Positions 1-64,000 of a stretch of DNA of 64,000 bases are shown here, in pieces. A program made the translations under genes and the position numbers. The number at the start of each line of letters is the position of its first letter. Position 1 is the first letter of the stretch. The stretch covers positions 3,789,501 to 3,853,500 of the forward strand of contig NC_133917.1 of NCBI RefSeq assembly GCF_964199755.1, given 5' to 3'. The stretch is from Larus michahellis (lineage: Eukaryota > Chordata > Aves > Charadriiformes > Laridae). Under the pieces are notes generated by a model that was not told the DNA's origin, made no database searches, and saw only the letters and a list, made by a program, of their open reading frames with translations.

Positions 1-300
1 GAGGGGCCCAAAACTGAACACAAAATTTGAGGTGGGGCCGCCCCGGTGCCGAGAACAGGGGACAATCACTGCCCCAGTCCTGCTGGCCACGCTATTCCTG
101 ATACAGGCCAGGATGCTGGTGGCCTTCTTGGCCACCTGGGCACACTGCTGGCTCTTCTTCAGCCGGTTGTTGACCACCACCCCCAGCTCCTCTTCCACCG
201 GGCAGCTCTCCAGATGCTCTTCCCCCAGTGTGTAGCGTTCATGGGGTTGGTGGGACTCTTGGCCTTGTTGAACCTCACACCGTTGGCCTCGTCCCATATG
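1..300 (-). mobile_element. CR1 LINE fragment, 3' part of ORF2
   Basis: Read on the minus strand, the first ~300 bases match the well-known CR1 retroposon segment near the end of the reverse-transcriptase ORF. Recognisable pieces are the stretch meaning 'GTTCAACAAGGCCAAG' near 265, the 'CAGCAGTGTGCCCAGGTGG' block around 130-150, and the 'TGTGTTCAGTTTTGGGCCC' block at the left edge. The copy is truncated by the window edge and its reading frame is broken, so it is a dead insertion. It lies in the last SP1 intron, antisense to SP1. CR1 is the dominant LINE of birds and other archosaurs, which supports the host assignment. Recognition is from memory of the family consensus; the right boundary is approximate. 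Confidence 0.82.
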
Positions 301-385
301 GATCCAGCCTGTCCAGACCCCTCTGTAGAACCATCCCCCCCACACCTTCCCCCCACCTCACCCCTCTCTCCATCCCGTCTTCCAG
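301..385 (+). other. SP1: 3' end of the last SP1 intron
   Basis: Short stretch between the CR1 remnant and the SP1 coding exon. It is pyrimidine-rich from 310 to 383 and ends in the splice acceptor CCAG at 382-385. No other feature is visible. Confidence 0.75.
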
Positions 386-705
386 GGGAGAAGAAATTCG
401 CCTGCCCGGAGTGTCCCAAACGCTTCATGCGGAGCGACCACCTCTCCAAGCACATCAAGACCCACCAGAACAAGAAGGGAGGCCCGGCCAACAACGTGGC
501 CATGAACGTCTCCGCCGTCCCCATGGACACGGGGGCCTCGGCGGAGGGTAACGGCGGGGCCACCCCCTCGGCCCTCATCGCCACCAACATGGTGGCCATG
601 GAAGCCATCTGCCCCGAGGGCATCGCCCGCCTGGCCAGCAGCGGCATCAACGTGATGCAGGTGGCCGACCTCCAGTCCATCAACATCAGCGGCAACGGGT
701 TCTGA
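386..705 (+). CDS. SP1: Transcription factor Sp1, last coding exon (third zinc finger and C-terminus)
   Basis: Sp1 is a nuclear C2H2 zinc-finger activator that binds GC boxes in promoters. This exon starts after an acceptor at 385, entering with one base of a Gly codon carried over, and runs to TGA at 703-705. It encodes about 105 residues: the third finger (CPECPKRF...[12 protein letters not shown], with both Cys and both His present), a Lys/Gly-rich linker, then a conserved tail ending in SINISGNGF, the known vertebrate Sp1 C-terminus. The RSDHLSK helix is typical of Sp1 finger 3 rather than Sp3 or Sp4, and the tail wording ([17 protein letters not shown]) also fits Sp1. Fingers 1 and 2 and the glutamine-rich activation domains lie upstream of the window. 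The AMHR2 gene follows on the same strand, as in mammals. Confidence 0.96.
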
Positions 706-1174
706 GGGGCGACGCGGGACGCGGGCACCGGCGGGCGACGGGGCGAGGCGACGGCGCCGCCGGGCGGCACGGGGCCGAGAGAGCGGAGCGCAGCCGAAGC
801 CAGGAGCTCTTCCCACCGCGAGGGCGACGTCCCTCGTCACCCTCCAGCACTAAAGCCCGGCTCCTCTTCCCTGGGATCGCGGCCCTCCTTGAGCTGTCCG
901 ACCTCCGGGGCCCGGTGACCACGCACGAAGGCCAGAGCTATATATATATATTTTTTAATTTCGGCTTCACCTTATTATTATTATTATTATTTCCCTTTTT
1001 TTTTTTTTTTTTTTTTTTTTTTCCCCCAACCCCCTCTCCCCGCCTTTCCCTTCCACTCCCTTCCCGAGATCCGTCTGCCCTTTCCGGTAGCCAGCCTTCG
1101 ACGCCGTCATGCCTTGGGGAGGGGGGGGGGAAAAAAAGGACGGGGGGGGGAGGTGGGGTGGCGGAAAAAAAAAA

Positions 1175-1180
1175 AATAAA
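1175..1180 (+). terminator. SP1: Possible proximal SP1 poly(A) signal
   Basis: AATAAA within an A-rich stretch about 470 bases after the SP1 stop, with G/T-rich sequence downstream. It could produce a short-UTR isoform, but it sits in a poly-A run where the hexamer arises easily by chance. Confidence 0.3.
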
Positions 1181-2929: not shown

Positions 2930-4830
2930 AGCGGTGGCCGTCCCGGGATTGTCCTCCCCCGCCATCGTCCCCGTGGCTGTCCTTCTCCGCCATCGTCCCC
3001 GTGGCCTTCCTTCCCCACCATCCTCCTCGGAGCCGGGCTTCCCCGCGATCCCTGTCCTTCCCCGCCATCGTCCCCAAGGCTGTCCTTCCCCGCCATCGTC
3101 CCCAGGGCTGTCCTTCCCTGCCATCGTCCCCATGGCCTTCCTTCCCCGCCATCGTCCCCAAGGCTGTCCTTCCCCACCATCATCCTCGGGGCCGGGCGTC
3201 CCCATGATCCCTGCACATCCCCGCACTGATCCCCGTGGATGGGCTTCCCCGTCATCGTCCCCATGGCTGTGCTTCCCGGCCATTCCCGTGGCCATCGTTC
3301 CCCGCTGTTGTCCCCTACCATCGTCCCCATGGCCGGGCTTCCCCGTGACCCCTGTGCATTCCCGCTGTCCCCGTGGGCGGGCTTCCCTGTCATCGTCCCC
3401 ATGGCCGGGCTCCCTGGCCCTCCCCGTGGCCATCGTCCCCCACCGTCCTCCCCGTGGCCGTGCTTCCCCTCGATCCCTCTGTGTCCCCGCCATCGTCCCC
3501 GTGGCCATCCTTCCCCGCCCATCCCTGTGCGTCCCCGCTGTCCCCATGGTCGGGCTTCCCGGTGATTGTCCCCATGGCCGTGCGTCCCCGCCATCATCCC
3601 TGTGGCTGTGTGTCGCTGCTGTCCCCATGGTCAGGCTTCCCAGTGATCGGCCCCATGGCCGTACGTCCCCACCATCGTCCCTGTGTGTCCCCACCATCCC
3701 TATGGTCGGGCTTCCCAGTGACCATCCCCATGGCGGTGTGTCCCCGCCATCGTCCCCGTGTGTCCCCACCATCCCTATGGTCGGGCTTCCCAGTGACCAT
3801 CCCCATGGCCGTACGTCCCACCATCGTCCCCGTGTGTCCCCGCCATCCCTATGGCTGGGCTTCCCGGTGATCCCCATGGCTGTGCGTCCCACCATCGTCC
3901 CCGTGGCCGTGCGTCCCCACTGTCCCCATGGCCTGGCTTCCTGGTGATCATCCCCGTGGCCATACGTCCCCACCATCGTCCCTATGGCCATCGTTCCCCG
4001 CCATCCCCGTCCTTCCTGGCCATCGTCCCCGTGGCCAGGCTTCCCTGTGATCCCTGTGCATCCCCGCCATCGTCCCCATGGCCATCGTTCTCTGCTGTCC
4101 CCATGGTCATTGTTCCCTGCCATCGTCCCTATGGCTGTGTCTCCCCATGATCCCAGTGGCCGTCGTTCCCCGCCATCATCCGATGGCCACCGTTTCCCAC
4201 CATTGTCCCCATGGCCATCATTCCCTGACATTGTCCCCATGGCCATGCATCCCTGCCATCATCCCCATGGCCGTTGTTCCCCGCCATCGTCCCCGTGGAC
4301 ATCGTTCCCCACCATTGTCCCCATGGTGAAGTGTCCCTGCCGTTGTCCCTGTGGCCATCATTCCCCGCCATCGTCCCCATGGCCAAGTGTCCCTGCCATT
4401 GTCCCCATGGCCATCATTCCCCGCCATCGTCCCCATGGCCAAGTGTCCCTGCCATCGTCCCCATGGCCATGCGTACCCGCCATCGTCCCCATGGCCATCG
4501 TTCCCTGCCATCGTCCCCATTGCCGTCATTCCCCACCATTGTCCCCATGGCCATCGTTCCCCACCATTGTCCCTATGGCCAAGTGTCCCTGCCATCGTCC
4601 CCATGGCCATGCGTACCCGCCATCGTCCCCATGGCCATCGTTCCCTGCCATCGTCCCCATTGCCGTCATTCCCCACCATTGTCCCCGTGGTCATCGTTCC
4701 CCACCATTGTCCCTATGGCCAAGTGTCCCCGCCATCGTCCCCATGGCCGTGCGTCACCACGATCCCCGTGGCCATCGTTCCCCGCCATCGTGCCCGTGGC
4801 CATCGTCCCCTGCTCCCGGAGATGCCACCT
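2930..4830 (+). repeat. 28-bp minisatellite in the SP1 3'UTR
   Basis: Tandem array of a C-rich unit of about 28 bp built from the words CCATCGTCCCC and ATGGCCATCGTTCC, about 65-70 copies over 1.9 kb. The period is confirmed by a near-exact internal duplication: the words at 4441 (AAGTGTCCCTGCC) recur at 4581, exactly 140 bp or five units later. Copies diverge more on the left side (2930-4000) than in 4200-4750. Because 28 is not a multiple of 3, translated frames cycle among three peptides; no coding role is implied. Confidence 0.92.
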
Positions 4831-7174: not shown

Positions 7175-10100
7175 GTGGGTGCTGGGGACCCCCCCACCCT
7201 GGGGACTCTAAATTGGGGGGGGGGGTAAGGTTTTTTTTTGGGGGGGGGGTGGTTGGGAGGGTTCACCACCATATTCCACCACCCTCCCCCCCCCCCCCCC
7301 CAGGCGCCCGCAACCTCAGCTGCGTCTCCTATAAGCACCCCAGCGTGCGGGGAGGGTTGGGGGGCGCGGGGGGGGCCACGGCCGGCACCGTCCACTGCCC
7401 CCCCGGCCAGTGCTGCATCGGCATCTGGAACCAGAGCCACGCGCTGGTGCAGGGTGAGACACCCCCCCGCCCCCCCCCCGGGGGGGCCACATGGCCTGGG
7501 GGGGCTGGAGAAGGGGCCTGATCCTGCCCTGGGGGGGCTAAAAGGGGCTGGGGTAGGATGGAGGGGCCTGATCCTGCCCTGGGGGGGGGCTAAAAGGGAC
7601 TGGGGCAGGATGGAGGGGCCTGATCCTGCCCTGGGGGGGGCGTAAAAGGGGCTGGGGCAGGATGGGGGGGGCTGATCCTGCCCTGGGAGGGGTTAAAGGG
7701 GCTGGGGCAGGATGGGGGGGCCTGATCCTGCCCTGGCGGGGGGGAGTAAAAGGGGCTGGGGCAGGATGGAGGGGCCTGATCCTGCCCGGGGGGGGGGCTA
7801 AAAGGGACTGAGGCAGGATGGAGGGGCCTGATCCTGCCCTGGCGGGGGGGGTAAAAGGGGCTGGGGCAGGATGGGGGGGGCTGATCCTGCCCTGGCGGGG
7901 GGGGTAAAAGGGGCTGGGGCAGGATGGGGGGGCCTGATCCTGCCCTGGGAGGGGGTAAAAGGGGCTGGGGGGGGATGGAGGGGCCTGAGCTTGTCCCGGG
8001 GGGGGCGGTAAAAGGGACTGGGGCGGGATGGAGGGGCCCGATCCTGCTTTGGCGGGGTATCAGTGGGGGGTTAAAAAGGGCTGGGGCAGGATGGGGGGCC
8101 TGATCCTGCCCTGGGGGGGTGGTCAAAGGGGCTGGGGCAGGGCGGAGGGGCCTGATCCTGCCTGTAGGGGCAGTGGGGGGGTGCGGGGGGGGGCTGGAAG
8201 CCCGGCCGCCCGGGTCCGTGCCCAGCTGCTGCGCTTGACCTTGGCCTTGAGAAGTAGCGACGGCGGCGCTGGGCTGGAGCGGAGCTGCGGGGGGGGGTCG
8301 GGAGGGGGGTCCCGGGCAGGGGGGGTCCCAGGGAGGGGGAGTCCTGGGGAGGGGGGAGTCCCAGGGAGGGGGGTCTCAGGGAGGGGGATCTCAGGAGGGG
8401 GGTCCCAGGGAGGTGGGGGGTCCCAGGAAGGGGGATCCGGGGGAGGGGGGGGTCGTCCGGGGGAGGGGGGGTCCCAGGGAGGGGGGTCCCAAGGATGGGG
8501 GTTCTTAGGCGGGGAGGGGGGGGGTCACAGGGATGGGAGTCCCAGGAGGGGGGTCCCAGGGAGGGGGGGGAGTTTCAGGGAGAGGGGGGTCCCAGGGGAG
8601 GGGGGGGGTGGGTGTCAGGGAGGGGGGTCCCAGGGAGGGGGGGGTCGTCCCGGGGAGGGGGGTCCCAAGGATGGGGGTCTCGGGGGGGGGGGGGGGCGGG
8701 TCACAGGGATGGGAGTCCCAGGAGGGGGGTCCCAGGAATGGGGGTCTCAGGGAAGAGGGTCCCAGGAGGGGGGTCCCAGGGAGGGGGGGGGTGGGTCTCA
8801 GGGAGGGGGGTGCCAGGGAGGGGGGGTCGTCCCGGGGAGTGGGGGTCCCAGGGAGGGGGGGTCTCAGGCCGGGGGGGGGGGGGGGTGTCACAGGGATGGG
8901 AGTCCCAGGAGGGGGGTCCCAGGAATGGGGGTCTCAGGGAAGGGGGGGGGTGGGTCTCAGGGAGGGGGGTCCCAGGGAGGGGGGGTCCCAGGGAGGGGGG
9001 TCCCAAGGAGGGGCGTTCTCAGGCGGGGAGGGGGGGGTCACAGGGATGGGAGTCCCAGGAGGGGGGTCCCAGGGAAGGGGGGGGAGTCTCAGGGAGAGGG
9101 GGGTCCTGGGGGGGGGGGGTGGGTGTCAGGGAGGGGGGTGCCAGGGAGGGGGGCGTCGTCCCGGGGAGTGGGGGTCCCAGGGAGGGGGGGTCTCAGGCCG
9201 GGGGGGGGGTGTCACAGGGATGGGAGTCCCAGGAGGGGGGTCCCAGGAATGGGGGTCTCAGGGAAGAGGGTCCCAGGAGGGGGGTCCCAGGGAAGGGGGG
9301 GGTGGGTCTCAGGGAGGGGGGTCCCAGGGAGGGAGGGGGTGTCTCAGGGAGGGGGGTCCCGGGGGGGGGGGTGTCTCAGGGAGGGGGGTCCCAGCCTGGG
9401 CCCCTGCCCCTGTCCCGGGCGTCGGGGTGCCCTGGGCAGCGCCCCGGGGTGCCCCGGTGACGGTGTCGGTGTCCCCAGGCTGCTGGGGGGGGCGGGGGGG
9501 CCTCCTGTCCCTCTGCCACCTGCGCCCCCAGCCCCGCGGGCCCCCCCGGCGGTGCCATCCTCGTCTGCCTCTGCCACGGCCACCTCTGCAACGGCAACGC
9601 CAGCGGCAGCGGCACGGCCGGGGGGCTGGGGGGACCCCCCGCGACCCCGGTACTGGGGGGCACCGGGAGGGGGGGCTGGACGGGATCCACTGGGAGGGCA
9701 GGGGGGCCCGGGGACACATGGGGGGGGCTCTGGGGACACATTGAGGGGTGGGGGGCGGGGCGGACACACATGGGGGATTATGGGGGACCCATGGAGGGGC
9801 CTGGGGACACGGGGGGGGCTCTGGGGAGCCATGGGGGGGCCTGGGGACATATGGGGGTCCCTGGGGAGACATGGGGGACCGGGGGGGACCCATGGGGGGG
9901 GCTGGGGAGACATGAGGGGGCCTGGGGACACATGGGGGACCGGGGGGGACCGATGGGGGGGCCTGGGGAATGGGGGACTAGGGGGGACCCATGGGGGGGA
10001 CGCTGAGACCTTCGGGGGACCCACAGGGAGCCGTGGGACCCATGGGGGGGGGGGCTATGGGGGGGCTGGAGGCCCACGGAGGGGGGTGCTTGGGACCCAT

Positions 10101-18707: not shown

Positions 18708-19215
18708 GGCACGGGGGGGGGGGGGAGGGGGACACACACACACCCCCCCAGGCGTCCCTGTTCACTCCCCAGTTTAGTGTGTGTCCCCCCCCCCGCCCCC
18801 GCCAGGCCTCCGCCCCCCGCACCTGAGGGAGAGGCGGGTGCAGGGGGAAACTGAGGCACGGGGGGGGGTGGGGGGCGGGGGAAGACGGGGGGCCACCCAG
18901 GCTTGACCTCCCAGTTCAGTGTCGTCGTGTGTGTCCCCCCCCCCGGCAAGGGACCCAGGCGTCCGCCCCCCCGCCCCGCCCCCCCCCCCGGCCAACCCCA
19001 CCCCCCCCCCCCCGCAGCTGAGCTAGAGGCGGTGCGGAGGGAAACTGAGGCACGGGGGGGGTGGGGAAGGGGGGGCGGTGTGTGTGTGGAAGGAGGGGGT
19101 GGCGGGGGGGGGGGACGGACACCCAGGCGTCCCAGTTGACCTCCCAGTTCACTACCCGCCCCCCCCACTCCCCCCCCGGGCTCCGCCCCGCCCCGGGGAG
19201 GATCCAGGCGTCCCG
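18655..19215 (+). repeat. Three imperfect ~170-bp tandem copies overlapping the AMHR2 3' end
   Basis: Each copy has the order CCTGAG(C/G)GAGAGG, GGGAAACTGAGGCACGGG, a G/A-rich run, CCCAGGCGTCC and an AGTTCA or AGTTTA word. The GGGAAACTGAGGCA motif sits at about 18700, 18846 and 19040. The first copy contains the last AMHR2 codons, so the repeat has incorporated or duplicated the coding end. Confidence 0.72.
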
Positions 19216-19299: not shown

Positions 19300-20040
19300 C
19301 CCCCCCCCCCCACCCCCGGGGCCCCCCACATCCCCCCTGAGCCCCCCACATCCCTCTGCAACCCCCCCGTCCCCCTCTGCACCCCCAAATCCCCCACGCA
19401 CCCCCCAGATCCCCTCGGCACCCCCAAATACCCCCTGCAACCCCCCTTCACCCCCCACTCCTACTTGCACCCCCCAAATCCCCCCTGCTCCCCCCCCCCC
19501 GCACCCCCCCACATCCCTCCTGTACCCCGTGAGCCCCCCCCCAGTCCTCCCTGCACCCCCAAATCCCCCCTGCACCCCCCCGGTTCCCTTGTGCACCCCC
19601 CAGATCCCTCCTGCACCCCCCAAATCCCCTCCGCACCCCCCCCAGCACCCCCAAAACCCCCCCTCTGCCCCCCCGAATCCCACCTGCAGCCCCTCTGCAC
19701 CCCCCCCAGACACCCCCTCTGCACCCCCGTACGCCCCTCCTGCACCCCCAGATCCCCCTGCACCCCCCCAGCCCCCCTGCACCCCCAAATCCCCTCTGAA
19801 CCCCCCCCGCACCCCCTGTGCACCCCCCAGATCCCTCCTGCACCCCCAAATCCCCCCCGCACCCCCCCCAGATCCCTCTGCAGCCCCCCCGCACCCCAAA
19901 TCCCCTCTGAACCCCCCTGCACCCCCAGGTGCCCCTGCAGCCCCTGTGCCCCCCCCAGCCCCCTCTGCACCCCCATTCCCCTCCTGCACCCCCGTATCCC
20001 CTGACCCCCAGTGACCCTGAACCCCCCCCACCCCCCAAGT
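19300..20040 (+). repeat. C-rich ~19-bp minisatellite, PRR13 intron 1
   Basis: Tandem variants of CAAATCCCCCCTGCACCCCC, with CAGATCCCTCCTGCACC variants, continuing with decay to about 20110. Pyrimidine/C-rich on the + strand, the reverse of the AMHR2 arrays immediately to the left. Confidence 0.87.
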
Positions 20041-22400: not shown

Positions 22401-22489
22401 ATGTCCCCCGTGGCGGGGGGGGGGTGGCCCTGGGTGCTGCCGGGGTTGGGGGGGAGTCGCCGGGTTCTGGGGTGCCCCCGCTGCCCCCC

Positions 22490-24115: not shown

Positions 24116-24119
24116 CCCC

Positions 24120-24534
24120 CCTCCCCGCAGTCCTCCGAGCCGCGGGTGGCGCTGTGGCGGCCCGCGGCCGCTCTACCCCCCGCCTCCCCTCCCCCCCCCC
24201 CGACTCCTCGTTGGCTCCCGCGGGGCGGGGCGGGGCGGGGCGGGGCGCGCGGGGGAGGGAGGAGGCCGCTCTATCCCCGCCCCGCCGCGCCTCGCTGGTG
24301 CGCGGCGTCCGTTTCCGGGTCGGGGCGGGGTGTAAATCGGGCCGCTCCCGCCGCCCCCTCCCAGACCCGCCGCGGCCGCCGCAGCAGGAGCAGCCGCCGC
24401 CGCCGCCTCCCGCCGCCATCCCGCCCGCCCGCGCTCCCTCTCCCCCCCCACCTCCCTCCCCTCCTCCCCGCCCTCCCTCCTCCCGCTCCGCCCGGAGCGC
24501 CCTTCTCCCGCCGCCGTTACCGGCGCCGCTCCAG
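24120..24534 (+). promoter_or_regulatory. PCBP2: PCBP2 CpG-island promoter and untranslated first exon
   Basis: Dense CpG sequence with a run of overlapping GC boxes (GGGGCGGGGC repeated, about 24222-24250), no TATA box, and a GCC/CAG-rich leader typical of PCBP genes (about 24350-24420). It ends in the donor CTCCAG|GTAGGC at 24534. Transcription probably starts between 24300 and 24345. The exon is non-coding; the ATG is in the next exon. Confidence 0.72.
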
Positions 24535-27300: not shown

Positions 27301-27367
27301 CTCTGCTCACTCAGCGACCAAAGATCTGACCACTGACAAAGCCTGACTCAACCCAACGCAGCTCAAG

Positions 27368-41200
<13,833 letters not shown>

Positions 41201-51800: not shown

Positions 51801-54800
51801 ACTGTGGCTATGGGGTAGATATAGGGTTGGCCATGGCCATGGGTTGGATATAGGGTTGGCATGGGGTGGCCATGGGGTGGCTATAGGGTTGGCCATGGGG
51901 TGGCTATAGGGCTGGCCATGGGGTGGCTATAGGGTTGGCCACGGGGTGGATATAGGGTTGCCATGGGGTGGCTATAGGGCTGGCCATGGGGTGGCTATAG
52001 GGTTGGCCACGGGGTGGCCACGGGTTTGCGATAGGATTGGCCGTGGGCTGGCTAAGAAGGTTGGCCGTGACCACGGCGGGTGGCCATAGGGTTGGCCGCG
52101 GCCATAGGGTTGGTGCGGCGTTGGCCGCGGCCGTGGGGCGGGTCCGGGGGGGGGGGGGGTGGGGGGGGGTGCTGGGGGCGCCCCCTCACCTGAGCAGCTC
52201 CTTCTCCTTGAGCTCCAGCTGCAGCATGAGGGCGCTGAGCTCCATGTAGAGGTTGTTGGCGCGTTCCAGCTTCCGCTCGTAGTGCTCCCGGATGTCCAGC
52301 GCGTGCCTGGCACCGGGGCGTTGGCACGCGCGGCACCCCACGGCGCCCCACGGTACCCCACGGCACCCCACGGCGTCCGCCACGCGCAAGGACAGCCACC
52401 CAACAGCCCTCCCTGTACGCCAGCGCCCCCTGATCCCCCCCCGGCCCTGGCCCTGGTCCCCCCCCGCCATGTCCCTGGTGCCCCCATGGCCATGCCCCCG
52501 CCCTGGCCCCAGTGTCCCCAGTGTCCCCAGTGTCCCCAGTGTCCCCAGTGCCCCGCGGCCGGGCCCCACCGGAGCTCCTCGCGCCGGCGGTTGATGAGCT
52601 CCTCCTCCAGCCGGTGCAGACACGTCCCCTCCGACTTGATCTTCTCGAAGTGCAGCTTCACCTCCTCCCGCCACTCCGCCTGCGGCACGCGGGCACCGGC
52701 TACCGCGGGCACCGGCCACCACGGGCACTGGCCACCATGGGCACTGGCTACCACAGGCACTGGGCATTGACCACCATGGGCACCGGCCACCATGGGTACC
52801 GGACACCCTGGGCACTGGCTACCATGGGCACTGGGCACCTGCCACCATGTGCATTGGGCACCCTGGGCACCGGCCACCATGGGCACCGGCCACCATGGGC
52901 ACCCTGCACCCTGGGCACTGGCTACCATAGGCACTGGGCACCCCCGACAGTGGGCACCTCGGACACTGGCTACCATGGGCACCGGGCACCCTGGACACTG
53001 GCTACCACAGGCACTGGGCACTGGCCACCATGGGCACTGGCCACCATGGGCACCCTGCACCCTGGGCACTGGCTACCACTGGCAATGGGCACCCTGGGCA
53101 CTAGCTACCACAGGCACTGGGCACCAGCCACCGTGGGCACAAGCCACCATGGGCACACCGCACCCTGGGCACTGGCTACCATGGGTACCGGGCACCCTGG
53201 GCACTGGCTACCATGGGCACTGGGCACCTACCACCATGTGCATTGGGCACCCTGGGCACCGGCCACCATGGGCACCGGGCACTCTGGGCACTGGCTACCA
53301 CAGGCACTGGGCACTGGCCACCATGGGCACTGGCCACCATGGGCACCCCGCACACTGGGCACTGGCTACCACTGGCAATGGGCACCCTGGGCACTGGCTA
53401 CCATGGGTACTGGGCACCCTGGGCACTAGCTACCACAGGCACTGGGCACCAGCCACCATGGGCACGGGCCACCATGGGCACCCCACACCCTGGGCACTGG
53501 CTACCACAGGCACTGGGCACTAGCCACCATGGGCACTGGCTACCACAGGCACTGGGCACCAGCCACCATGGGCACAAGCCACCATGGGCACCCCACACCC
53601 TGGACACTGGCTACCACAGGCACCGGGCACGCCCAACAGTGGGCACCTCGGACACTGGCTACCATGGGCACCAGGCACCCTGGGCACAGGCTACCACAGG
53701 CACTGGGCACTGGGCACTCTGGGCACGGGCCACTCTGGGCACCGGCCACCATGGGCACCCCACACTCTAGGCACTGGCTACCACTGGCAATGGGCACCCT
53801 GGGCACTGGCCACCATGGGCACCCCGCACCCTGGTCACTGCCTACCATAGGCACTGGGCACCCCCAACAGTGGGCACCTTGGACACTGGCTACCACGGGC
53901 ACTGGCTACCACAGGCACTGGGCACCAGCCACCATGGGCACAAGCCACCATGGGCACACCGCACCCTGGCCACTGGCTACCACGGGCACTGAGCACCCTG
54001 GGCTCTGGCCACCATGGGTACCGGGCACCCTGGGCACTGGCTACCATGGGCACCGGGCACCTGCCACCATGTGCATTGGGCACCCTGGGTACTGGCTACC
54101 ATGGGCACCAGGCACCCAGCGCACTGGCTACCACAGGCACTGGGCACCAGCCACCACAGGCACCAGGCACACTGGGCACTGGCTATCACAGGCATCGGGC
54201 GCCCCGGGCAGCGGGAACCCTGGGCACCAACTATGGCAGGCACTGGGCACCTGGGCACTGGCTACCACGGTCACTGGACACCCTGGGCACCGGCTACCAC
54301 AGGCACCGGGCACCCTGGGCACTGGGTGCTGTGGGCACTGGGCACCGTGGGCACTGGCTACCACTTGTACTGGGCACCCTGGGCACCGGCTACCATGGTC
54401 ACCAGACACCCCGGGCACCAGTTACTGCAGGCACTGGGCACTCCTAGCATTGGCTACTGAGGGTACTGGGCACTGCGGGCATTGGCTACCAAGGGCACTG
54501 GGCACCCTGGGCACCAGGCACCCAAGCACCAGGTACCGTAGGCACCTGGCACCCCAGGCACTGGGTACCCCATGCACTGGCTACTACTTGTACTGGGCAC
54601 CCTGGGCACTGGCTTCTGTGGGCACTGGGCACCCTGGGCATTGGCTACCGAGGGCACTGGGCATCCCGGGCACTGGCTTCTGTGGGCACCGGGCACCCTT
54701 GGCACTGGCTACAGCAGGCACCAGGCACCCTGGGCACTGGCTACCGAGGGCACGGGGCACCCTGGGCACCAGGCACCCAAGCACCAGGTACAACAGGCAG

Positions 54801-57800
54801 CTGGCAACCCAGGCACTGGCTATCGTGGGCACCGGGACACCCCAGGCACCAGTTACTGCAGGCACCGGGCACTCCTGGCACTGGCTACCGTGGGCACTGG
54901 GCACCCTGGGCACTGGCTACCACATGTACTGGGCACCCTGGGCACTGGCTACTGAGGTCACCGGGCACCCTGGACAGGAGCTACCACAGGCACCGGGCAC
55001 CCTGAACACCGGGCACCCAAGCACCAGGTACAGCAGACACCGGGCACCCTGGGCACTGGCTACCATGGGCACCAGTTACTGCAGGCACGGGGCACCCCGG
55101 GCACTGGCTACCACGGTCACCAGACACCCTGGGCACTGGCTACCACAGGCACCGGGCACCCTGGGCACTGGGTGCTGTGGGCACTGGGCACCCTGGGCAC
55201 TGGCTACCACATGTACTGGGCATCCCGGGCACTGGCTACTGTGGGCACCGGCTACCGTGGGCACCAGACATCCCAGGCACCACTTACGGCAGGCACTGGG
55301 CACCCCGGGCATTGGCTACTGATGTCAACGGGCACCCTGGGCACCGGCTACTGCAGGCACTGGGCACCCTGCACACCAGGTATGGCAGGCACTGGGCACC
55401 CTGGGCACTGGCTACCACGGTCACTGGACACCCTGGGCATTGGCTACCACAGGCACCAGGCACCCTGGGCACTGGGCACCCTGGGCACTGGCTACCGTCG
55501 GCACCAGACACCCCGGGCACCAGTTACTGCAGGCTCGGGGCACCCCGGGCATTGGCTACCACGGTCACCGGACACCCTGGGCACTGGCTACCACAGGCAC
55601 CGGGCACCCTGGGCACTGGGTGCTGTGGGCACTGGGCACCCTGGGCACTGGCTACCACATGTACTGGGCACCCCGGGCACTGGCTACCGTGGGCACCGGA
55701 CACCCCGGGCACCAGTTACTGCAGGCACTGGGCACCCCAGGCATTGTCTACTGAGGTCACCGGGCACCCTGGGCACCAGGTATGGCAGGCACTGGGCACC
55801 CTGGGCCCTGGCTACCACGGTCACTGGACACCCTGGGCACTGGGCACCCTGGGCACTGGCTACCACGGTCACTGGACACCCTGGGCCCTGGGCACCCTGG
55901 GCACTGGCTACCGTGGGCACCAGACACCCTGGGCACCAGTTACTGCAGGCACTGGGTACACCAGGCATTGGCTACTGAGGGCACTGGGCAACCCGGGCAC
56001 TGGCTACTGTGGGCACTGGGCAACCCAAGCACTGGGCACCCTGGGCACCGGCTACTGTGGGCACTGGGCAACCCAAGCACTGGGCACCCTGGGCACCAGC
56101 TACTGTGGGCACTGGGCAACCCAAGCACTGGGCACCCTGGGCACCGGCTACTGTGGGCACTGGCCACCATAGTCACTGGGCACCCTGGGCTCCCAGGGGC
56201 ACGAGACGGCCCGGTCACTGCGTTACCCGGGTGCAGCTGCTCCAGGCACTGGGATATACTGGGAGCAGCTTCCACGAGTGCTGGGATACACTGGGCAAGG
56301 ATACCCCGGGCACTGGCTCCCACTGGCACCAGTTGCCCCAGCGCCAGCCCCCCCAGTCACTGGGGTGTGAAGCAGGTCTCCTGCGGGGTTTGGGGGTGCG
56401 CGGGGCGGGGTGGGGGGGGTCCCAGGGTGCTGTATGCCTCTGGGTGCTTGGGGGGGTCCTGGGTGCTGGGGAGGGGGGCCCAGGGTGCTGGGTATCCTGG
56501 GGGTCCCTGGGTGTTAGGGCTCCTGCGGTGCTGGGGGAGTCCTGGGTGCTGGGGGGGGGCCCAGGGTGCTGGGTATCCTGGGGGTCCCTGGGTGTTAGGG
56601 CTCCTGGGGTGCTGGGGGAGTCCTGGGTGCTGGGGGGGGGCCCAGGGTGCTGGGTATCCTGGGGTGCTGGGGGGGTCCTGGGTGCAGGGGGGGGCCCAGG
56701 GTGCTGGGTATCCTGGGGGTCCCGGGGTGATGGGGGTCCTGGGGTGATGGGGGGTGCTGGGTGCTGGGGGGGGCCCAGGGTGCTGGGTATTCTGGGGGTC
56801 CCTGGGTGTTAGGGTTCCTGGGGTGCTGGGGGTGTCCTGGGTGCTGGGGGGGGACCCAGGGTGCTGGGTATCCTGGGGGTCCTGGGGTGATGGGGGGGTG
56901 CTGGGTGCTGGGGGGGGGCCCAGAGTGCTGGGGGTCCTGGGGTGATGGGTATCATGGGGGGTCCCTGTGTACCAGGGGTCCCGGGGTGCTGGGCTCCTGG
57001 GTGCTGGGGTCCCAGGTAGTGGGGTGCTGGGGTGCTGGGGGTCCCGGGGTTCTGGGGTGCCAGGGTGGTGGGGTCCCAGGTGGTGGGGTCCCAGGTGCCG
57101 GGGGTCCAGGGGTGCTGGGGTCCTGGGTGGTGGGGTCCCAGGTGGTGGGGTCCTGGGTGCCGGGGGCCCAGGGGTGGTGGGGTGCTGGGGGTCCCGGGGT
57201 TCGGGGGTGCCGGGGTGCTGGGGTCCTGGGTGGTGGGGTCCCCAGTGCCAGGGGTCCAGGGGTGGTGGGGTCCCGGGTGGTGGGGTCCCGGGTGCCAGGG
57301 GTCCAGGGGTGGTGGGGTGCCAGGGTGTTGGGGTCCCAGGGTGGTGGGGTGCCGGGTGGTGGGGTCCCCGGTGCTGGGGGTCCAGGGGTGGTGGGGTGCC
57401 GGGTGGTGGGGTCCCCGGTGCCGGGGGTCCAGGGGTGGTGGGGTGCCGGGTGGTGGGTACCTGGGATTTGAAGTAGGTCTCCTGGGGGGTGGAGAGGACG
57501 TCGGCGGAGGCGATGTCGAGGTGCAGCAGGATCTGGCGGAAGGACGGCCGGTTCCGGGGCTTGCTGTTCCTGGGGGGAGCGGCAGGGCGCTGGGTGGGGG
57601 CTTTGGTGGGGGGGTTGGGGGGGTGGGGGGCAGGTGGGTGCCAGGGGGTGACGCAGTGCCGGGGCTTTTTGGGAGCAGGGGCAGAGAAGGGCGCACAGGA
57701 GACAGTGGGGCACCCGAGGGGCAGCGGTGCCCGGGGTGCAGCCTGGTGGGGGGCGGGGGGCCATGGACAACCCTCCCCCCCCCCAGGATGGGGGTCCCTA

Positions 57801-60800
57801 TGAGCACGGTGGCAGGTCCCTCATGGTGGTCCCTACAGTGGGGTGCCCATGGTGGGGCGGGGGGGGGGTGTCCCCCATGGGATGACTCCACCACGGCGTG
57901 GGTGCCCGTGGCGTGGCCCCATCTAGGGTGTCCCCGTGGGGTGTCACCCAAGGCGGGGGGGGGGGGGGTGTGTGTCCCCAAGCGGGGCGTCCCCGTGGGT
58001 GCACTCACCAGCACTGGCGCAGCAGCACCTTGAAGCCGTCGGGGCAGCCGGAGGGGACGGGCAGGTGGAGGCTGTTGCTGCCCACCCCCCAGATGATGGC
58101 CGAGGAGTCCACGTCCTTGTAGGGGATCTCCCCCGTCAGCAGCTCCCACAGCACCACCCCGAAGGACCTGGGGACACCCCCACGGTCCCCGTCACCCACG
58201 ACCCCCGTCGCCCATGGTTGGGCACCCCCAGTGTCCTCCCGCTGTCTCCCACCCTGCCCCGGTGTCCCCTCCCTGCCTCTGCCCATGCTGGTGGCCCCGG
58301 TGTCCCCTGCCCCTCCTGTGGTCCCCGATGTCCCTCATCCCTGTCCTTGCAATGTCCTCACTGGTATCGCCAATGTCCCCCCGTTCCTATTGTCCCCAAC
58401 CCTTCCTGTGCCCCCCGGTGTCCCCAGTGCCTCCCAAAGACCCCCGTCTTGCTGTGTCCCCGGTGCCACCATAGCTCCCTGGTGTCCCTGAGGCTCCCAT
58501 GTCCCCCATGTCCCCGAGGTCCCTGCACCCTCACCAGATGTCAACCTTCTCGGAGACGGGCTCATTGCGGATGACCTCGGGTGCCATCCAGGCCACCGTG
58601 CCAGCGAAGGACATCTTGGTGCTCTTGTCAATGAGCTCCTTGGAGGTGCCGAAGTCCGAGATCTTCACCACGTCGTCGTAGGTGATGAGCATGCTGGGGG
58701 GCACCCGCTCAGCGCCACGCCAATGACACGGGCACGGCACCGCCACCGCATGCAACTGCTATGAGCATCATCGGGTCATGGGCATGCCACCACCACGGGC
58801 ACAACACCATCATGGACATGCCACCACCACAGCACCACCATGGGCATGGCACCACCATGGGCATGCAACTGCCATGAGCATGGTCCCGTCACGGACGTGC
58901 CACCACCATGGCCATGGCACCATCAATGAGCATGGCACCACCAAGGATGTATCATCGCCATGAACATGGCACCACCATGGCCATGGCACCACCAAGAATA
59001 TGTCAGTGCCATGAACATGGCACCACCATGGCCATGGCACCACCAACGCATGGTGGTCCCGTCATGGACATGCCACTACCATGGCCATGGCACCGCCATG
59101 AGCATGGTCCCATCATGGCCATGGCACCACCATGGCCATGGCACCACCAACGCACGGTGGTCCCATCATGGACATGCCACCACCATGGCCATGGCACCAT
59201 CAATGAATATGGCACCACCAAGGACGTATCATCGCCATGAACATGGCACCACCACGGCCATGGCACCACCAAGAATATGTCAGTGCCATGAACATGGCAC
59301 CGCCATGGCCATGGCACCACCAAGAATATGTCAGTGCCATGAACATGCCACCACCATGGCCATGGCACCATCATGGACATGCAACTGCCATGAGCATGAT
59401 CCCATCATGGACATGCCACCACCATGGACATGGCACCACCATGGGCATGCAATTGCTATGGGCATGGAACCACCGTGGGGATGGCACTGACATGGTCATA
59501 CAACTGTCATGGACATGCAACCACCATGTTCATTGCACTGCCACACGCATGCCACTGTCATGGAGATGTCACCGCCATGGAGATGTCACCGCCATGGACA
59601 CACAGCCACCATAGACATGGCACTGCTGCAGGTGTGCAACTGCCATGGGCATTGCATTACCATGGGCACCACCATGGCCATGGTACCACCAAGGACATGT
59701 CACCACCATGAACATGTCATCACCATGGCCATGGCACCACCAATGCATGGCGGTCCCGTCATAGACATGCCACCACCATGGATGGACATGCCACCACCAT
59801 GGTCATGCAACTGCCATGAGCATGGTCCCGTCATGGACATGCCGCCACCATGGATGGACATGCCACCACCATGGTCATGCAACTGCCATGAGCATGGTCC
59901 CGTCATGGACATGCCACCACCACGGATGGACATGCCACCACCATGGTCATGCAACTGCCATGAGCATGGTCCCGTCATGGACACACCACCACCAGGGTTA
60001 CAGCACCGTCACCACCACGGCCATGGCACCACCAGTGGGCATGGCACCACCATGGCCATGGCACCACCATGGGCATGCAACTGTCACCGACGCGCAACCA
60101 TTGAGGACAATGTACCACCATGGGCATGGCACTGCCATGATCATGCAACCGCCACATGCATGTCCCCGCCACGGGCACGGCACCATCACGAGCACGTCAC
60201 CGCCTGGGGCACCCCCCCCTCCCCAGCACCCGTGGGTGCTCCCTGAGCCCCCAGCCCCGCTCACTTGGGCGACTTGAGGTCGCGGTGGATGATCTTGTGG
60301 AGGTGCAGGTAGTTCATGCCGCCGGCGATGCCCATGGACCAGTCGACGAGGAGGGAGGGGGTGACCTTGCGCCCGGCGCGCAGCACCTCGTAGAGCTGGC
60401 CCTGGGCGCAGAACTCCATGATGATGCAGTAGCAGGGTGCCTGGGTGCACACACCCCTGCGGGCACAGCGGCACCCTCAGCACCCGCCGCCTGGCCAGCC
60501 GGGGCACCCAGCAGCACCCGGGCAACCAGCTGCACCAGGGCACCCAACATCGCCAGGACACCCAACTTCTCTAGGGCACCCAAATTCTCCAGGGCACTCA
60601 GCTTCACCAAGGCACCCAACTTCACCAGAGCACCCAACTTCTCTAGGGCACCCAGCTTCTCCAGGACACCCAACTTCTCTAGGGCACCCAGCTTCTCCAG
60701 GACACCCAACTTCACCGGGGCACCCAATTTCTCTAGGGCACCCAACTTCTCCACAGCACCCAACTTCTCTAGGGCACCCAGTTTCTCCAGCACCCCCAAC

Positions 60801-63447
60801 TTACTTCTCCAGGACACCCAACTTCTCTAGGGCATCCAACATCTCCACAGCACCCAACATCTCCAGGGCACCTGGCTTCACCAGAGCACCCAAATTCTCC
60901 AGGGCACACAATTTCTCTAGGGCACCCAACATCTCCACAGCACCCAACTTCTCTAGGGCACCCAACTTCTCCAGGACACCCAACTTCTCCAGGACATTCA
61001 GCTTCTCTAGGGCACCCATCTACACTCAGGTCCCCATCAGCACCCATCAGCACTGGGGCACCAAGCCCCCCCGTGTTAGCACCAGGAGCACCCGTCTTCA
61101 CCATGGGCACCCCTCTGCACCCAGAGACCCGGTAGCACCGGGGCACCCATCTGAGTTGGGGCACCCACCTGCAGCCGGGCACCCATCGGCGCCGGAGCAC
61201 CAGGCCACCCGTCTGCACCCACGTCACCCTGTGCCAGGAGTGCCCCGTCTGTGACAGACCTGTCCCCTGTGTGGCTGTCCCCTGTGCCACGTGTGGGACG
61301 TGCCAGTGTGTCCCGTGTCCATGCCGTGTCCTGCCCACCCAGGTCCATGCCATGCTGCTCTGCCCCACGCCCATGCCATGGCCGGGACCTCTGTGCCTGT
61401 CGCATGGCGTGGCCGTGCCTGTGACCATGCCATGGCCATGGCCATGCTCATGGCGTGTCTATGTTCATGGCATGTCCGTGCCCCATGCCCATGGCATGTC
61501 CATGTTCATGCTCACGGCGTGTCCATGCCCCGTGCCCATGGTTCTCCCCATGCCCATGGCGTGTCCATGTTCATGCTCACGGCGTGTCCATGCCCCGTGC
61601 CCATGGTTCTCCCCATGCTCACGGCGTGTCCATGCCCCATGCCCATGGTGCTCCCCATGCTCACGGCGTGTCCATGTTTATGCTCACAGTGCGTCCATGC
61701 CCCGTGCCCATGGTGTTCCCCATGCTCATGGCGTGTCCATACCCCGTGCCCATGGTGTTCCCCATGCCCCATGCCCATGGTGCTCCCCATGCCCATGGCG
61801 TGTCCATGCCCTGTGCCCATGGTGCTCCCCATGCCCATGGCACGTCCATGGCCCGTGCCATGTTCATGCCCATGCCATGGCCATGACCTCTATGCTTGTA
61901 CCTGCGGCATGTCCATGCTCATGCCATGTTCGTGCTTGTGCCCATGGCGTGTCCATGCCCCGTGCCCGTGCTGTTCCCCATGCCCATGGCGTGTCCATGG
62001 CCCTCGCTGTGTCCATGCCCGTGCCATGTCCATGCCTCCATCCCTCATGCCCATGGCATGTCCATGCCCCACACCGTGTCCATGCCCATGCTGTGTCTGT
62101 GCCCTGTGCCCGTGGTGTTCTCCAGGCCCCATACCCATGATCTCCATGCCCCATGCCCACGGCTTGCTCATGCCATGTCCATGTTCCATGCCCCACGCCA
62201 TGTCCATGCCCCGCGCCCATGGTGTTCCCCATGACCATGCCTTGTCCATGCCACAACCACACTCCATGCCCATGGTATGCCCATGGCATGCCCATGGTGT
62301 CCCCACACCCATCCCATGACCATGCCGTGTCCATGCTGTGCCCATGGTGTCCCCATGCTCATCCCACGCCCATGCTGTGTCCGTGCTCTGCCCATGGTGT
62401 CCCCAAGCCCATGGTGTCCCCATGCCCATCCCATGCCCACACTGTGTCCATGCCATGTCCATGGTGTCCCCACACCCCTCCCATGACCATGCCATGTCCA
62501 AGGTGTCCCTGTGCCCATCCCATGCCCACACCATGTCCATGCTCTGCCCATGGTGTCCCCACGCCCATCCCATGACCATGCCGTGTCCATGCTGTGCACA
62601 TGGTGTCCCTGTGCCCATGGTGTCCCTGTGCCCATCTCATGACCATGCTGTGTCCGTGCTGTGCCCATGGTGTCCCCATGCCCATCTCATGACCATGCTG
62701 TGTCCGTGCTGTGCCCATGGTGTCCCCATGCCCATCTCATGACCATGCTGTGTCCGTGCTGTGCCCATGGTGTCCCCATGCCCATGGTGACCCCATGCCC
62801 ATCCCACAACCATGCTGTGCCCATGGTGTCCCCAAGCCCATGGTGACCCCAAGCCCATCCCATGTCCTACACTGTGTCCATGGTGTCCCCATGGTGTCCC
62901 CACGTCCATCCCATGACCATGCCGTGTCCTTGGTCTCCCCAAGCCCATGGTGTCCCCGTGTCCATGGTGTCCCCATGCCCATGGTGTCCCTGGGCCCATC
63001 CCATGACCACGCCGTGTCCTTGGTCTCCCCAAGCCCATGGTGTTCCTGTGCCCATGGTGTCCCCGTGCCCATCCCACGACCATGCCATGTCCTTGGTCTC
63101 CCCAAGCCCATGGTGTCCCCGTGCCCATGGTGTCCCCGTGCCCACCCCATGACCATGCCGTGTCCTTGGTGTCCCCAATCCCCTGGTGTCCCCATGCCCA
63201 TGGTGTCCCCAAGCCTGTGCCCAATCCCGTCCCGCGCCCCGCGCCAGCAGCACCCGCGCTCACTTGAAGGTGATGATGTTGGGGTGCTTGAGCTTGCGCA
63301 GGTGCTTGATGTCGGTCTCCTTCAGGTCCCGCACCTTCTTGACGGCCACCTCCTCCCCGTGGAAGCGGCCCAGGAAGACGGCGCCCTGCGCCCCGCTGCC
63401 CACCCACTGCAGGTCCAGGATCTCCTCGAACGGCACCTCCCAGGGGT
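42775..63447 (-). CDS. MAP3K12: Mitogen-activated protein kinase kinase kinase 12 (DLK), 12 visible coding exons, 5' end outside window
   Basis: DLK is a mixed-lineage MAP3K that activates JNK and p38 cascades through MKK4/MKK7 in axon injury and neuronal stress. From 5' to 3' the exons are 63264-63447, 60265-60456, 58535-58693, 58009-58167, 57461-57569, 52570-52679, 52190-52306, 50275-50412, 48418-48865, 47312-47382, 44779-45040 and 42775-42867. They total 2042 nt, about 680 codons including the stop. Domains in order: kinase (GSGAQG loop, VAVKK lysine, HRDLKSPN, DFG, APE), two leucine-zipper helices, a Pro/Gly-rich region, and a conserved acidic C-terminus. Every junction is in phase and no exon is broken. 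The N-terminal exon(s), with the start codon, lie to the right of the window. MAP3K13 is the nearest relative, but the neighbour PCBP2 and the C-terminal wording favour MAP3K12. Confidence 0.96.
42868..44778 (-). other. MAP3K12: MAP3K12 intron before the last exon
   Basis: 1.9 kb, mostly the 43040-44640 array described separately. Splice sites are AAG|G at the 3' side and AAG|GTGATG at the 5' side. Confidence 0.8.
43040..44640 (-). repeat. ~115/155-bp minisatellite, MAP3K12 intron
   Basis: About 13 copies of a complex unit: CCCTTGCTAATCCCTTCC, a G run with CTCAGGGGTCCC, TAGTACGAGCCCTGG, GACCCTGGGGACCCC and CAATGGCACCCAGCCC. Spacing of the CCTTCCCCTTGCT word is about 113-117 bp, or about 150-160 bp where the GGCACCC segment is repeated once more. 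Copies are highly similar, suggesting recent amplification. Confidence 0.93.
44779..45040 (-). CDS. MAP3K12: MAP3K12 exon, C-terminal region with Asp-Gly run
   Basis: 87 codons plus one carried base. Encodes [18 protein letters not shown], a (DG)n run from a coding GACGGG hexanucleotide repeat, then [20 protein letters not shown] and SQGSEIPLD, all recognisable from human DLK. Confidence 0.94.
45090..47250 (-). repeat. 42-bp minisatellite with ~583-bp higher-order repeat, MAP3K12 intron
   Basis: Unit of 42 bp on the + strand: CCAACCACCCATGGACC, ACCACCCTGCACCCATC and CTGGGCTT. About 40-50 copies. A block beginning AGGTGTCCACGCACCC at 45131 is repeated from 45714, about 583 bp later, with near identity. 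Copies right of 46600 are more diverged. Confidence 0.94.
47312..47382 (-). CDS. MAP3K12: MAP3K12 exon, acidic motif
   Basis: 71 bases encoding [19 protein letters not shown] and LRQ plus two bases, matching the [17 protein letters not shown] signature of DLK. Confidence 0.94.
47420..48240 (-). repeat. ~60-bp minisatellite, MAP3K12 intron
   Basis: Units of CCTTCACCCCAGGAAGGAC, AGAGGGGTCCTGACCCCC and AGGATGCACCCATGGGTCC, steps of about 55-65 bp, roughly 13 copies; C-run lengths vary. Confidence 0.9.
48418..48865 (-). CDS. MAP3K12: MAP3K12 exon, Pro/Gly-rich region
   Basis: 448 bases. Starts [19 protein letters not shown], then [19 protein letters not shown], a low-complexity Gly/Pro/Ala stretch, and ends [18 protein letters not shown]. 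Start and end match human DLK closely; the middle is more GC-rich and diverged. The donor is CAG|GTGAGA on the minus strand. Confidence 0.93.
48940..49860 (-). repeat. ~50-bp minisatellite, MAP3K12 intron
   Basis: + strand units of CCAGGAGGGACCCCCATGG, CCAGACCCTGGAATTCC or CCAGACCCTCCAAATCC with C runs; about 18 copies of 45-55 bp, extending in decayed form to 50220. Confidence 0.9.
50275..50412 (-). CDS. MAP3K12: MAP3K12 exon, second zipper end
   Basis: 138 bases encoding [32 protein letters not shown] and [10 protein letters not shown]. Donor CG|GTGCGC is a weaker site. Confidence 0.94.
50470..52130 (-). repeat. ~30-bp minisatellite, MAP3K12 intron
   Basis: + strand units such as GGCCATGGCCATGGGG, TCGATATAGGGCTGG and TAGGTATAGGGTTGG, about 28-32 bp, about 50 copies. 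The right part (51760-52130) uses shorter GGGGTGGCTATAGGGTTGGCC units. Confidence 0.93.
52190..52306 (-). CDS. MAP3K12: MAP3K12 exon, leucine zipper
   Basis: 117 bases encoding [20 protein letters not shown] and [18 protein letters not shown], a heptad helix used for DLK dimerisation. Donor AG|GTGAGG. Confidence 0.95.
52570..52679 (-). CDS. MAP3K12: MAP3K12 exon, start of zipper region
   Basis: 110 bases encoding [18 protein letters not shown] and [16 protein letters not shown]. The minus-strand acceptor (GTGCCGCAG) lies at the very edge of the neighbouring tandem array. Confidence 0.95.
52690..56200 (-). repeat. ~32-bp minisatellite, the largest array in the window (3.5 kb)
   Basis: + strand units GGGCACCCTGGGCACTGG, CTACCACAGGCACT or CTACCATGGGCACT, about 30-33 bp, more than 100 copies. 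Subfamilies change along the array: ACCATGG-rich to about 54100, then GTTACTGCAGGCACC and TATGGCAGGCACTGG types. It fills most of one MAP3K12 intron. Confidence 0.95.
56390..57455 (-). repeat. G-rich minisatellites adjoining the previous array
   Basis: 56440-56950: units of about 85-100 bp with GGGCCCAGGGTGCTGGGTATCC and TGGGGGTCCCTGGGTGTTAG. 56980-57455: shorter units GGGGTGGTGGGGTCCC and GGGTGCCGGGGGTCC of 15-35 bp. The array ends at the donor of the next exon. Confidence 0.9.
57461..57569 (-). CDS. MAP3K12: MAP3K12 exon, end of kinase domain
   Basis: 109 bases encoding [18 protein letters not shown] and [18 protein letters not shown]; contains the conserved Arg of kinase subdomain XI. Donor CAG|GTACCC. 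Confidence 0.95.
57570..58008 (-). other. MAP3K12: MAP3K12 intron, single-copy
   Basis: 439 bases, GC-rich with G runs at 57590-57630 and 57950-57968. No tandem array or other feature seen. Confidence 0.6.
58009..58167 (-). CDS. MAP3K12: MAP3K12 exon, kinase C-lobe
   Basis: 159 bases encoding [38 protein letters not shown] and GFKVLLRQC. Acceptor CCCCAG, donor CTG|GTGAGT. Confidence 0.96.
58168..58534 (-). other. MAP3K12: MAP3K12 intron, mildly repetitive
   Basis: 367 bases with loosely repeated TGTCCCC words on the + strand but no regular array. Confidence 0.6.
58535..58693 (-). CDS. MAP3K12: MAP3K12 exon, activation segment
   Basis: 159 bases encoding [20 protein letters not shown] with the DFG motif, then [19 protein letters not shown] with the APE motif. 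Near-identical to human DLK. Confidence 0.97.
58770..60150 (-). repeat. 12-bp-based minisatellite, MAP3K12 intron
   Basis: + strand units of ATGGCACCACCATGGCC and ATGCCACCACC with 12-bp steps. Longer repeats are embedded: at 59780-59990 a block with ATGGATGGACATGCCACC and GCAACTGCCATGAGC occurs three times. CCATGG palindromes are frequent. Confidence 0.93.
60265..60456 (-). CDS. MAP3K12: MAP3K12 exon, hinge and catalytic loop
   Basis: 192 bases encoding [40 protein letters not shown] and [16 protein letters not shown] with the catalytic Asp and Lys. Donor CCCAA|GTGAGC. Confidence 0.97.
60530..61020 (-). repeat. 18/36-bp minisatellite, MAP3K12 intron
   Basis: + strand units CACCCAACTTCTCTAGGG and CACCCAACTTCTCCAGGA, about 27 copies of 18 bp, partly paired into 36-bp units. 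Lower GC than the other arrays. Confidence 0.93.
61290..63210 (-). repeat. CATG/GTGTCC minisatellite, MAP3K12 intron
   Basis: 61330-62290: units CATGCCCATGGCGTGTCC and CATGGTGCTCCCCATGC. 62290-63210: CCCATGGTGTCCCCATGC and ATCCCATGACCATGC. Steps of about 12-30 bp. A 63-bp segment (CCCATCTCATGACCATGCTG) occurs three times in a row at 62630-62790. Confidence 0.92.
63264..63447 (-). CDS. MAP3K12: MAP3K12 exon, kinase N-lobe (5'-most exon in window)
   Basis: 184 bases encoding [20 protein letters not shown] with the glycine loop, [18 protein letters not shown] with the ATP-binding lysine, and [11 protein letters not shown]. Acceptor GCCCGCAG, donor TTCAA|GTGAGC. Upstream exons (including the start) are outside the window. 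Confidence 0.97.
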
Positions 63448-63469
63448 CTGCGGGCACCCGCCGCACCCC

Positions 63470-63960
63470 CGCCTCAGCACCCCACGGCAGCACCCCCACC
63501 CCCCCGGCACCCCCCCGGCGGCACCCCACGGTGCACCCCCACCCATGGCACCCCCACAGCAGCACCGCCACCCCCACAGCACCCCCACATCAGCACCCCA
63601 CGGTGCACCCCCACCCACGGCACCCCCACGGCGGCACCCAATGGTGCACCCCCACCCCCACAGCACCGCCACATTGGCACCCCCACACCCACAGCACCCC
63701 CACATCGGCACCCCATGGTGCACCCCCACATCAGCACCCCCACATTGGCACCCCCACCCCCACAGCACCCCCACATCGGCACCCCACGGTGCACCCACGC
63801 CTGCAGCACCCCCACATTGGCACCCCCATGCCCACGGCACCCCCACTGCACCCACACCCGCTCCTTTGCCCCCCTGCACCCTCCTTCACCCCATTACACC
63901 CTCCCTGCCCCATAGCACCCTCCTGGCCCCATTACACCCTCCTGGCCCCATAGCAACCTC
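63470..63960 (-). repeat. Minisatellite in the next MAP3K12 intron, window edge
   Basis: + strand units CACCCCCACATCGGCACCCC and ACGGTGCACCCCCACCC, about 16-32 bp, to 63850, then CCCATAGCACCCTCCTGGCC units running to the window edge. Confidence 0.88.
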
Positions 63961-64000
63961 CTTTGCCCCCTTACACCCCCCCTGCCCCATAGGACCCTCT

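Follow-up and report, generated by a model that had tools for sequence, protein, structure and literature searches.

The window, which is the whole 64-kb stretch of DNA analysed here, contains genes that we identify as SP1, AMHR2, PRR13, PCBP2 and MAP3K12, in the same order as at human 12q13. Exons of AMHR2, MAP3K12 and PCBP2 were placed by tblastn with human protein queries and the splice sites were assigned by eye; several exon ends are approximate. The numbering of AMHR2 exons follows the human gene, on our assumption that the first extracellular exon found is exon 2, and MAP3K12 exons are counted from the first one found in the window. The coding features are the following.

386-705, plus strand: final coding exon of a gene with C2H2 zinc fingers, the open stretch 31-702 matching zf-C2H2 at E 2.6e-6, with stop codon and acceptor assigned by eye
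7304-18730, plus strand: AMHR2 exons 2-11, from tblastn and splice sites, the end of exon 11 being approximate
20495-21009, plus strand: PRR13, two coding exons (about 20,495-20,842 and 20,950-21,009)
27368-41200, plus strand: PCBP2 coding region with 13 nearly array-free introns, from KH domains, the 2p2r_A match and exon placement
42778-63447, minus strand: MAP3K12 exons 1-12, from the 5cen_A match, tblastn and splice sites, the ends of exons 9-12 being approximate

We take the zinc-finger exon at 386-705 to be the end of SP1 and the two small exons near 20.5-21.0 kb to belong to PRR13. Open stretches matched PDB chain 5cen_A for the MAP3K12 kinase (E 7.8e-30) and 2p2r_A for PCBP2 (E 3.8e-31). 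Ten stretches were scanned against Pfam. Six lie at or near the kinase or KH family cut-off (two KH and four MAP3K12 stretches, the first of the latter below the cut-off at E 0.0006), an AMHR2 stretch gave a weak Pkinase match to one exon, also below the cut-off (E 0.005), and three of the ten had no match. MAP3K12 exons 1-9 form one open reading frame throughout, and AMHR2 exons 6-10 are open in one frame. The frame is broken relative to the expected adjoining exons in a PRR13 exon (about 20800-20842, plus strand) and at the start of AMHR2 exon 11 (18449-18480, plus strand), in each case near short runs. Indels from assembly, genuine changes and an incorrectly chosen splice site may each be responsible and look alike here. 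In the would-be last SP1 intron, an antisense stretch (1-357, minus strand) resembles what we take to be the end of a CR1 LINE protein, for which Pfam returned only a weak, unrelated match below the cut-off. A search for tRNA genes in the window found none.

Much of the remaining sequence consists of tandem arrays. We ran Tandem Repeats Finder (TRF) on the window, as a preliminary description of this DNA had proposed, and merged all rows with a score of at least 100 and a period of at least 5. The 368 rows collapse into 32 arrays covering about 28.2 kb, or 44% of the window, and 23 of these exceed 250 bp, in line with the at least 20 separate arrays counted earlier. The unit sizes had been given as 5 bp to about 155 bp; the measured range is 6 bp up to blocks of several hundred bp. 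Three arrays, in the last intron and the 3' flank of PCBP2, are short and A/T-rich; the other 29 are 57-78% G+C. At the same threshold, 20 locally Markov-shuffled windows (10 first-order and 10 third-order) contained 0-383 covered bases (at most 0.6%), which rules out chance or low complexity as the source of the arrays. Their positions are listed below, with no strand assigned.

2950-4810: 3' of SP1, 28-bp unit in 140-bp blocks
7501-8162 and 8300-9394: AMHR2 intron 2, units of 52 bp and 15 bp respectively (TRF)
9693-9999: AMHR2 intron 3 (TRF)
11357-11461 and 11514-13007: AMHR2 intron 5, the second with 52-bp units in 289-bp blocks (TRF)
13380-14924: AMHR2 intron 6, 10-bp then 30-bp units
15443-16467: AMHR2 intron 8, (GGGATG)-like, starting 2 bp past the exon
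17034-17170, 17323-18047 and 18133-18307: AMHR2 intron 10 (TRF)
19322-19890: downstream of AMHR2 and ahead of the first PRR13 coding exon placed, perhaps in PRR13 intron 1
21225-22403 and 22593-24070: PRR13-PCBP2 gap, 20/60-bp and 20/51-bp units respectively
43044-44615: MAP3K12 intron 11 (TRF)
45198-47226: MAP3K12 intron 10, 41-bp unit
47430-48237: MAP3K12 intron 9 (TRF)
48944-49815: MAP3K12 intron 8 (TRF)
50544-52026: MAP3K12 intron 7, 29/58-bp units
52690-56190 and 56411-57457: MAP3K12 intron 5 (TRF)
58777-60078: MAP3K12 intron 2, 17-bp unit
60502-61018, 61403-62069 and 62264-63215: MAP3K12 intron 1, the last two sharing sequence
63455-63999: upstream of the first MAP3K12 exon found (TRF)

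The arrays are confined by exons and are distributed very unevenly among the genes. They make up 7,328 of 9,794 bp in AMHR2 introns (75%) and 14,750 of 18,603 bp in MAP3K12 introns (79%), against 89 of 12,703 bp in PCBP2 introns (1%). Among introns of 600 bp or longer, all 14 that belong to AMHR2 and MAP3K12 carry 250 bp of array or more, compared with none of the 7 PCBP2 introns (Fisher p 9e-6). In AMHR2 these are exactly introns 2, 3, 5, 6, 8 and 10, the set named in the preliminary description (human-based numbering), and eight MAP3K12 introns qualify where it had at least seven. The six AMHR2 and MAP3K12 introns that lack a large array are all short (82-453 bp); AMHR2 intron 4 has a 92-bp array only. 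Stripped of their arrays, the other introns have a median length of 282 bp, compared with 315 bp in these six (p 0.55). Since the stripped introns are no different in length from introns without large arrays, the arrays constitute the excess length. Gaps between array and exon can be as small as 2 bp (AMHR2 intron 8) or 3 and 10 bp (MAP3K12 intron 5). None of the 4,830 mapped exon bases is covered, some exon ends being approximate (0 of 1,633 in AMHR2, 0 of 2,067 in MAP3K12 and 0 of 1,130 in PCBP2), as expected from the earlier statement that exons bound the arrays. That nearly every large non-coding interval is an array holds for introns outside PCBP2 but not between genes: from the SP1 stop codon to AMHR2 just 28% is array, and no array with a TRF score of at least 100 and a period of at least 5 lies in the interval 24,071-27,367, ahead of the PCBP2 start codon. 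The labels used earlier for arrays in PRR13 intron 1 and in 3'UTRs are plausible, but only two PRR13 coding exons were placed. Classical GC-rich minisatellites consist of variant copies of a unit of roughly 10-100 bp, with one G-rich and one C-rich strand, and the arrays resemble them in all three respects. Unlike classical minisatellites, 23 arrays above 250 bp occur in one 64-kb stretch, with at least one per long intron.

PCBP2 also differs from its neighbours in composition. The GC content of its introns is 0.62, whereas AMHR2 and MAP3K12 introns outside the arrays have 0.72 and 0.75; G/C runs number 12.1 per kb, versus 22.6 and 33.3 in the other two genes. The gene harbours the ultraconserved element uc.338 (RF02271; 33144-33318, plus strand; Rfam 158.5 bits, E 4e-40), which overlaps a small coding exon; a passage of PMC9829027 reports uc.338 within PCBP2. 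PCBP2 could have been spared through composition, constraint or both, which the data cannot separate, and its low composition could itself be a consequence of not having expanded. A clean gene between two array-filled ones offers a comparison within one neighbourhood, in which the region is the same while composition and constraint differ.

A close precedent exists in the 'sequence stuttering' of chicken dot-chromosome introns. In the passages of Hron et al. 2026 (PMC12954441) used here, motifs expanded separately in each intron, stuttering introns are isolated by intact exons whose edges are sometimes copied, and 86% of dot-chromosome introns vary in length; variability is slightly elevated on chromosomes 22, 25 and 33. 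Replication stress at G-quadruplexes (G4) or meiotic conversion are named as possible causes. As in that system, introns in the window each have their own imperfect tandem expansion, in blocks of tens to hundreds of bases between intact exons; the genes are GC-rich bird genes, and intergenic arrays occur too. We read the window as an instance of published stuttering rather than a new kind of repeat. The density of arrays had been called unusual in the preliminary description, a view not supported by comparison with PMC12954441, whose passages present array-filled introns as usual on chicken dot chromosomes. Tandem-repeat introns with G4-forming motifs are also described for GC-rich avian 'missing' genes in passages of Beauclair et al. 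2019 (PMC6792250). Those are other genes, and G4 motifs are given there by plus and minus strand, with no coding-strand tally in these passages.

Two differences from the chicken system concern location and the clean gene. Chicken PCBP2 and MAP3K12 are placed at chr33:7.40-7.44 of GRCg6a in the consulted part of a population study (PMC13064311), and PCBP2 is clean between stuttering genes. Chromosome 33 lies outside the ten dot chromosomes but has some dot-like features, according to passages of Huang et al. 2023 (PMC9974502) and PMC12954441; for AMHR2, the part of PMC8622242 consulted gives no chicken chromosome. The main text of PMC12954441 does not name the genes of the window, the 115-gene list being supplementary. 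If the segment is on the equivalent of chromosome 33, full-strength stuttering is not confined to the ten dot chromosomes. To the published picture the window may add a location that is probably outside the dot chromosomes, a clean gene flanked by stuttering ones and, provisionally, the strand bias described below.

We consider it probable that the arrays arose by sequence stuttering, that is, by local and independent expansion, intron by intron. In a GC-rich segment of a bird microchromosome, introns and intergenic gaps would each have amplified a short local sequence of their own into tandem arrays. G-runs and G-quadruplexes might stall replication, perhaps during transcription, and give rise to small tandem duplications; we put this particular step at slightly less than an even chance. 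Once a few copies were present, block duplication, unequal exchange and conversion could enlarge and shuffle the arrays. Limits would come from selective constraint on exons, on splice sites and on conserved non-coding DNA, as in PCBP2 with uc.338. The arrays themselves need have no function.

The internal structure of the arrays bears on how they grew. Unit identity barely varies with distance within arrays (10 unit sets), a pattern more in keeping with homogenisation or an old burst than with continual slippage between neighbours. In 14 of the 23 large arrays, an ungapped window of at least 100 bp recurs elsewhere within the array at 95% identity or more, a count made with no shuffled control. 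Offsets range from 36 to 652 bp, and examples are 400 bp at 97% identity (offset 289, AMHR2 intron 5) and 200 bp at 99.5% (offset 652, MAP3K12 intron 10). Gapped blastn at thresholds of at least 95% and at least 100 bp detected such duplicates in none of the 23 arrays, perhaps, we think, from extension into diverged copies. We infer that block duplication took place on top of older short-unit arrays. It is possible, and the most serious alternative, though a less probable one, that frequent crossover and conversion on tiny chromosomes misalign and expand short repeats locally, with G-quadruplexes playing no special part. The near-independence of identity from distance is as under conversion, the block copies at their various offsets favour such a process as well, and meiotic conversion is among the alternatives in the consulted passages of PMC12954441. 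Meiosis alone does not explain why PCBP2 is clean between two stuttering genes.

The arrays are strongly depleted in CpG. Observed/expected ratios are 0.07-0.74 in arrays (median 0.21, n=23) against 0.55 in the 13 PCBP2 introns (p 7e-5), and reach 0.39 in the non-array intron parts and 0.73 in the exons of AMHR2 and MAP3K12. CATG occurs 21.1 times per kb in arrays versus 2.3 in PCBP2 introns, an approximately ninefold excess, and the ratio of CATG to CACG+CGTG is 583:224 in arrays and 29:65 in PCBP2 introns. CATG was considered as a seed motif shared by the arrays and rejected, as it is not above second-order expectation (1.07) and fits CpG decay. Together, the CpG depletion and CATG excess suggest a CpG-decay signature and germline methylation of the arrays.

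The arrays also show strand asymmetry. Among the 15 introns with any array, the 92-bp one included, the array is G-rich on the coding strand in 13 (p 0.007), and the non-array rest of the intron in 12. Array skew does not correlate with that of the residual intron across introns (rho 0.20, p 0.48), and inheritance of the skew from the rest of the intron was rejected on this result. In the 14 main introns, taken whole, 224 G4 motifs fall on the coding strand and 48 on the template, with the coding strand ahead in 12 introns and the template in 2 (p 0.013); PCBP2 introns have 23 on each. The exceptions are MAP3K12 introns 5 and 7, which are C-rich on the coding strand. AMHR2, on the plus strand, and MAP3K12, on the minus strand, have opposite genomic skew. 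Gene direction thus fits these two genes better than replication strand, which we rejected as the cause of the skew; the arrays on the PRR13 side and at SP1 disagree with gene direction. Between 19,322 and 24,070, the arrays have G4 motifs only on the minus strand while PRR13 is read on the plus strand, and a single G4 motif, on the minus strand, occurs in the array 3' of SP1. The coding-strand G4 bias is a provisional lead rather than a result, based on two genes in which introns of one gene may be non-independent.

This 12-to-2 bias is left unexplained by a purely meiotic origin. It would fit selection that retains the arrays for a function, such as RNA G-runs that help intron definition in splicing. 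G-runs can act as splicing enhancers, and the preponderance of coding-strand motifs across the 14 array introns is in keeping with such a role. We nevertheless regard selective retention as improbable. MAP3K12 introns 5 and 7 have the opposite strand composition, arrays occur outside introns too, and the length variability of 86% of chicken dot-chromosome introns, in the cited passages of PMC12954441, argues against tight selection on length.

Returning to stuttering, one could speculate that it is directed by transcription, an idea we hold to be rather unlikely as it stands. Arrays would grow where the G4-forming strand is the displaced coding strand, R-loops or transcription-replication conflicts would seed the duplications, and PCBP2, with its balanced strands and constrained introns, would be immune; the process would act outside dot chromosomes too. 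The main text of PMC12954441 contains no coding-strand tally: 'strand' is found twice, neither time about coding strands, and 'transcription' is absent as the start of a word. A coding-strand G4 bias across chicken dot-chromosome introns is a simple prediction.

Copying of exon edges was assessed in two ways. A single candidate emerged:

56360-56389, minus strand: copy, 26 of 30 nt identical, of the 3'-terminal 30 nt of MAP3K12 exon 5, between both arrays of intron 5

The copy is located about 1.07 kb downstream of exon 5, in the exon's own intron, and the splice donor is not retained after it. Its score is 40, whereas 200 shuffles reached 28 at most and another 100 reached 30, and the same exon end scored 21 or less against every other intron of the three genes. 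Of 66 exon ends tested, 3 exceed all 100 nulls (0.65 expected), only exon 5 by a wide margin. In a screen modelled on the published one this copy is the best proximal match at 37.4 bits, below the published cut-off of 42.1 bits, below the best distal match (39.2) and within the range of ten shuffled-set maxima (35.6-49.1); it is the one candidate for exon-edge copying as in the chicken system. We also compared intron and exon edges with their own array versus arrays of other introns. The four tests, uncorrected, gave a mixed picture: p was 0.018 for the acceptor side (13 introns), 0.038 for the downstream exon start (14), 0.32 for the donor side (12) and 0.52 for the upstream exon end (14). 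Masking removed two queries on the donor side and one on the acceptor side, and the edges are approximate in three of the MAP3K12 introns.

An assembly artefact, in which mis-joining or errors in long reads would have produced or enlarged the arrays, is very unlikely. The frame breaks in AMHR2 exon 11 and the PRR13 exon lie near short runs, as residual indels would, although the choice of splice site could also cause them, and a passage of PMC12954441 warns that part of local variation may be technical. Mis-joining would not be expected to give distinct units per intron with intact frames in MAP3K12 and AMHR2 exons 6-10, and the same source confirmed one comparable chicken intron in raw reads.

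Finally, each unit was compared with each other array among the 23 arrays above 250 bp (506 ordered pairs, 20 shuffled controls). All 20 controls were exceeded by 44 pairs, where about 24 would be expected. Highest, at 42 and 24 above the best control, is the match in both directions of two MAP3K12 intron 1 arrays (61403-62069 and 62264-63215). Two further pairs, next in rank, join different introns and are moderate: 61403-62069 with 52690-56190 (19 above) and 62264-63215 with 11514-13007 (17 above). All other pairs are 12 or less above the best control. Apart from a slight common vocabulary, the units are essentially private to their introns. The preliminary description had proposed local expansion over one spreading repeat and named units shared among introns as evidence to the contrary. 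No common unit was found among the 23 arrays, and the near-private units, together with the copy of its own exon end in one intron, agree with its proposal. One or a few repeat families spreading through the introns is scarcely credible, as the slight excess of matching pairs and the two moderate matches between introns come with no consensus common to introns, the strongest sharing being between two arrays of a single intron.

A small expansion is also seen within coding sequence. At about 44949-44979 (minus strand), in a MAP3K12 coding exon, the 6-bp unit GGGGAC is repeated in frame and encodes a short Asp-Gly run, six residues beyond the human protein. This run is a small tandem expansion inside the coding sequence.
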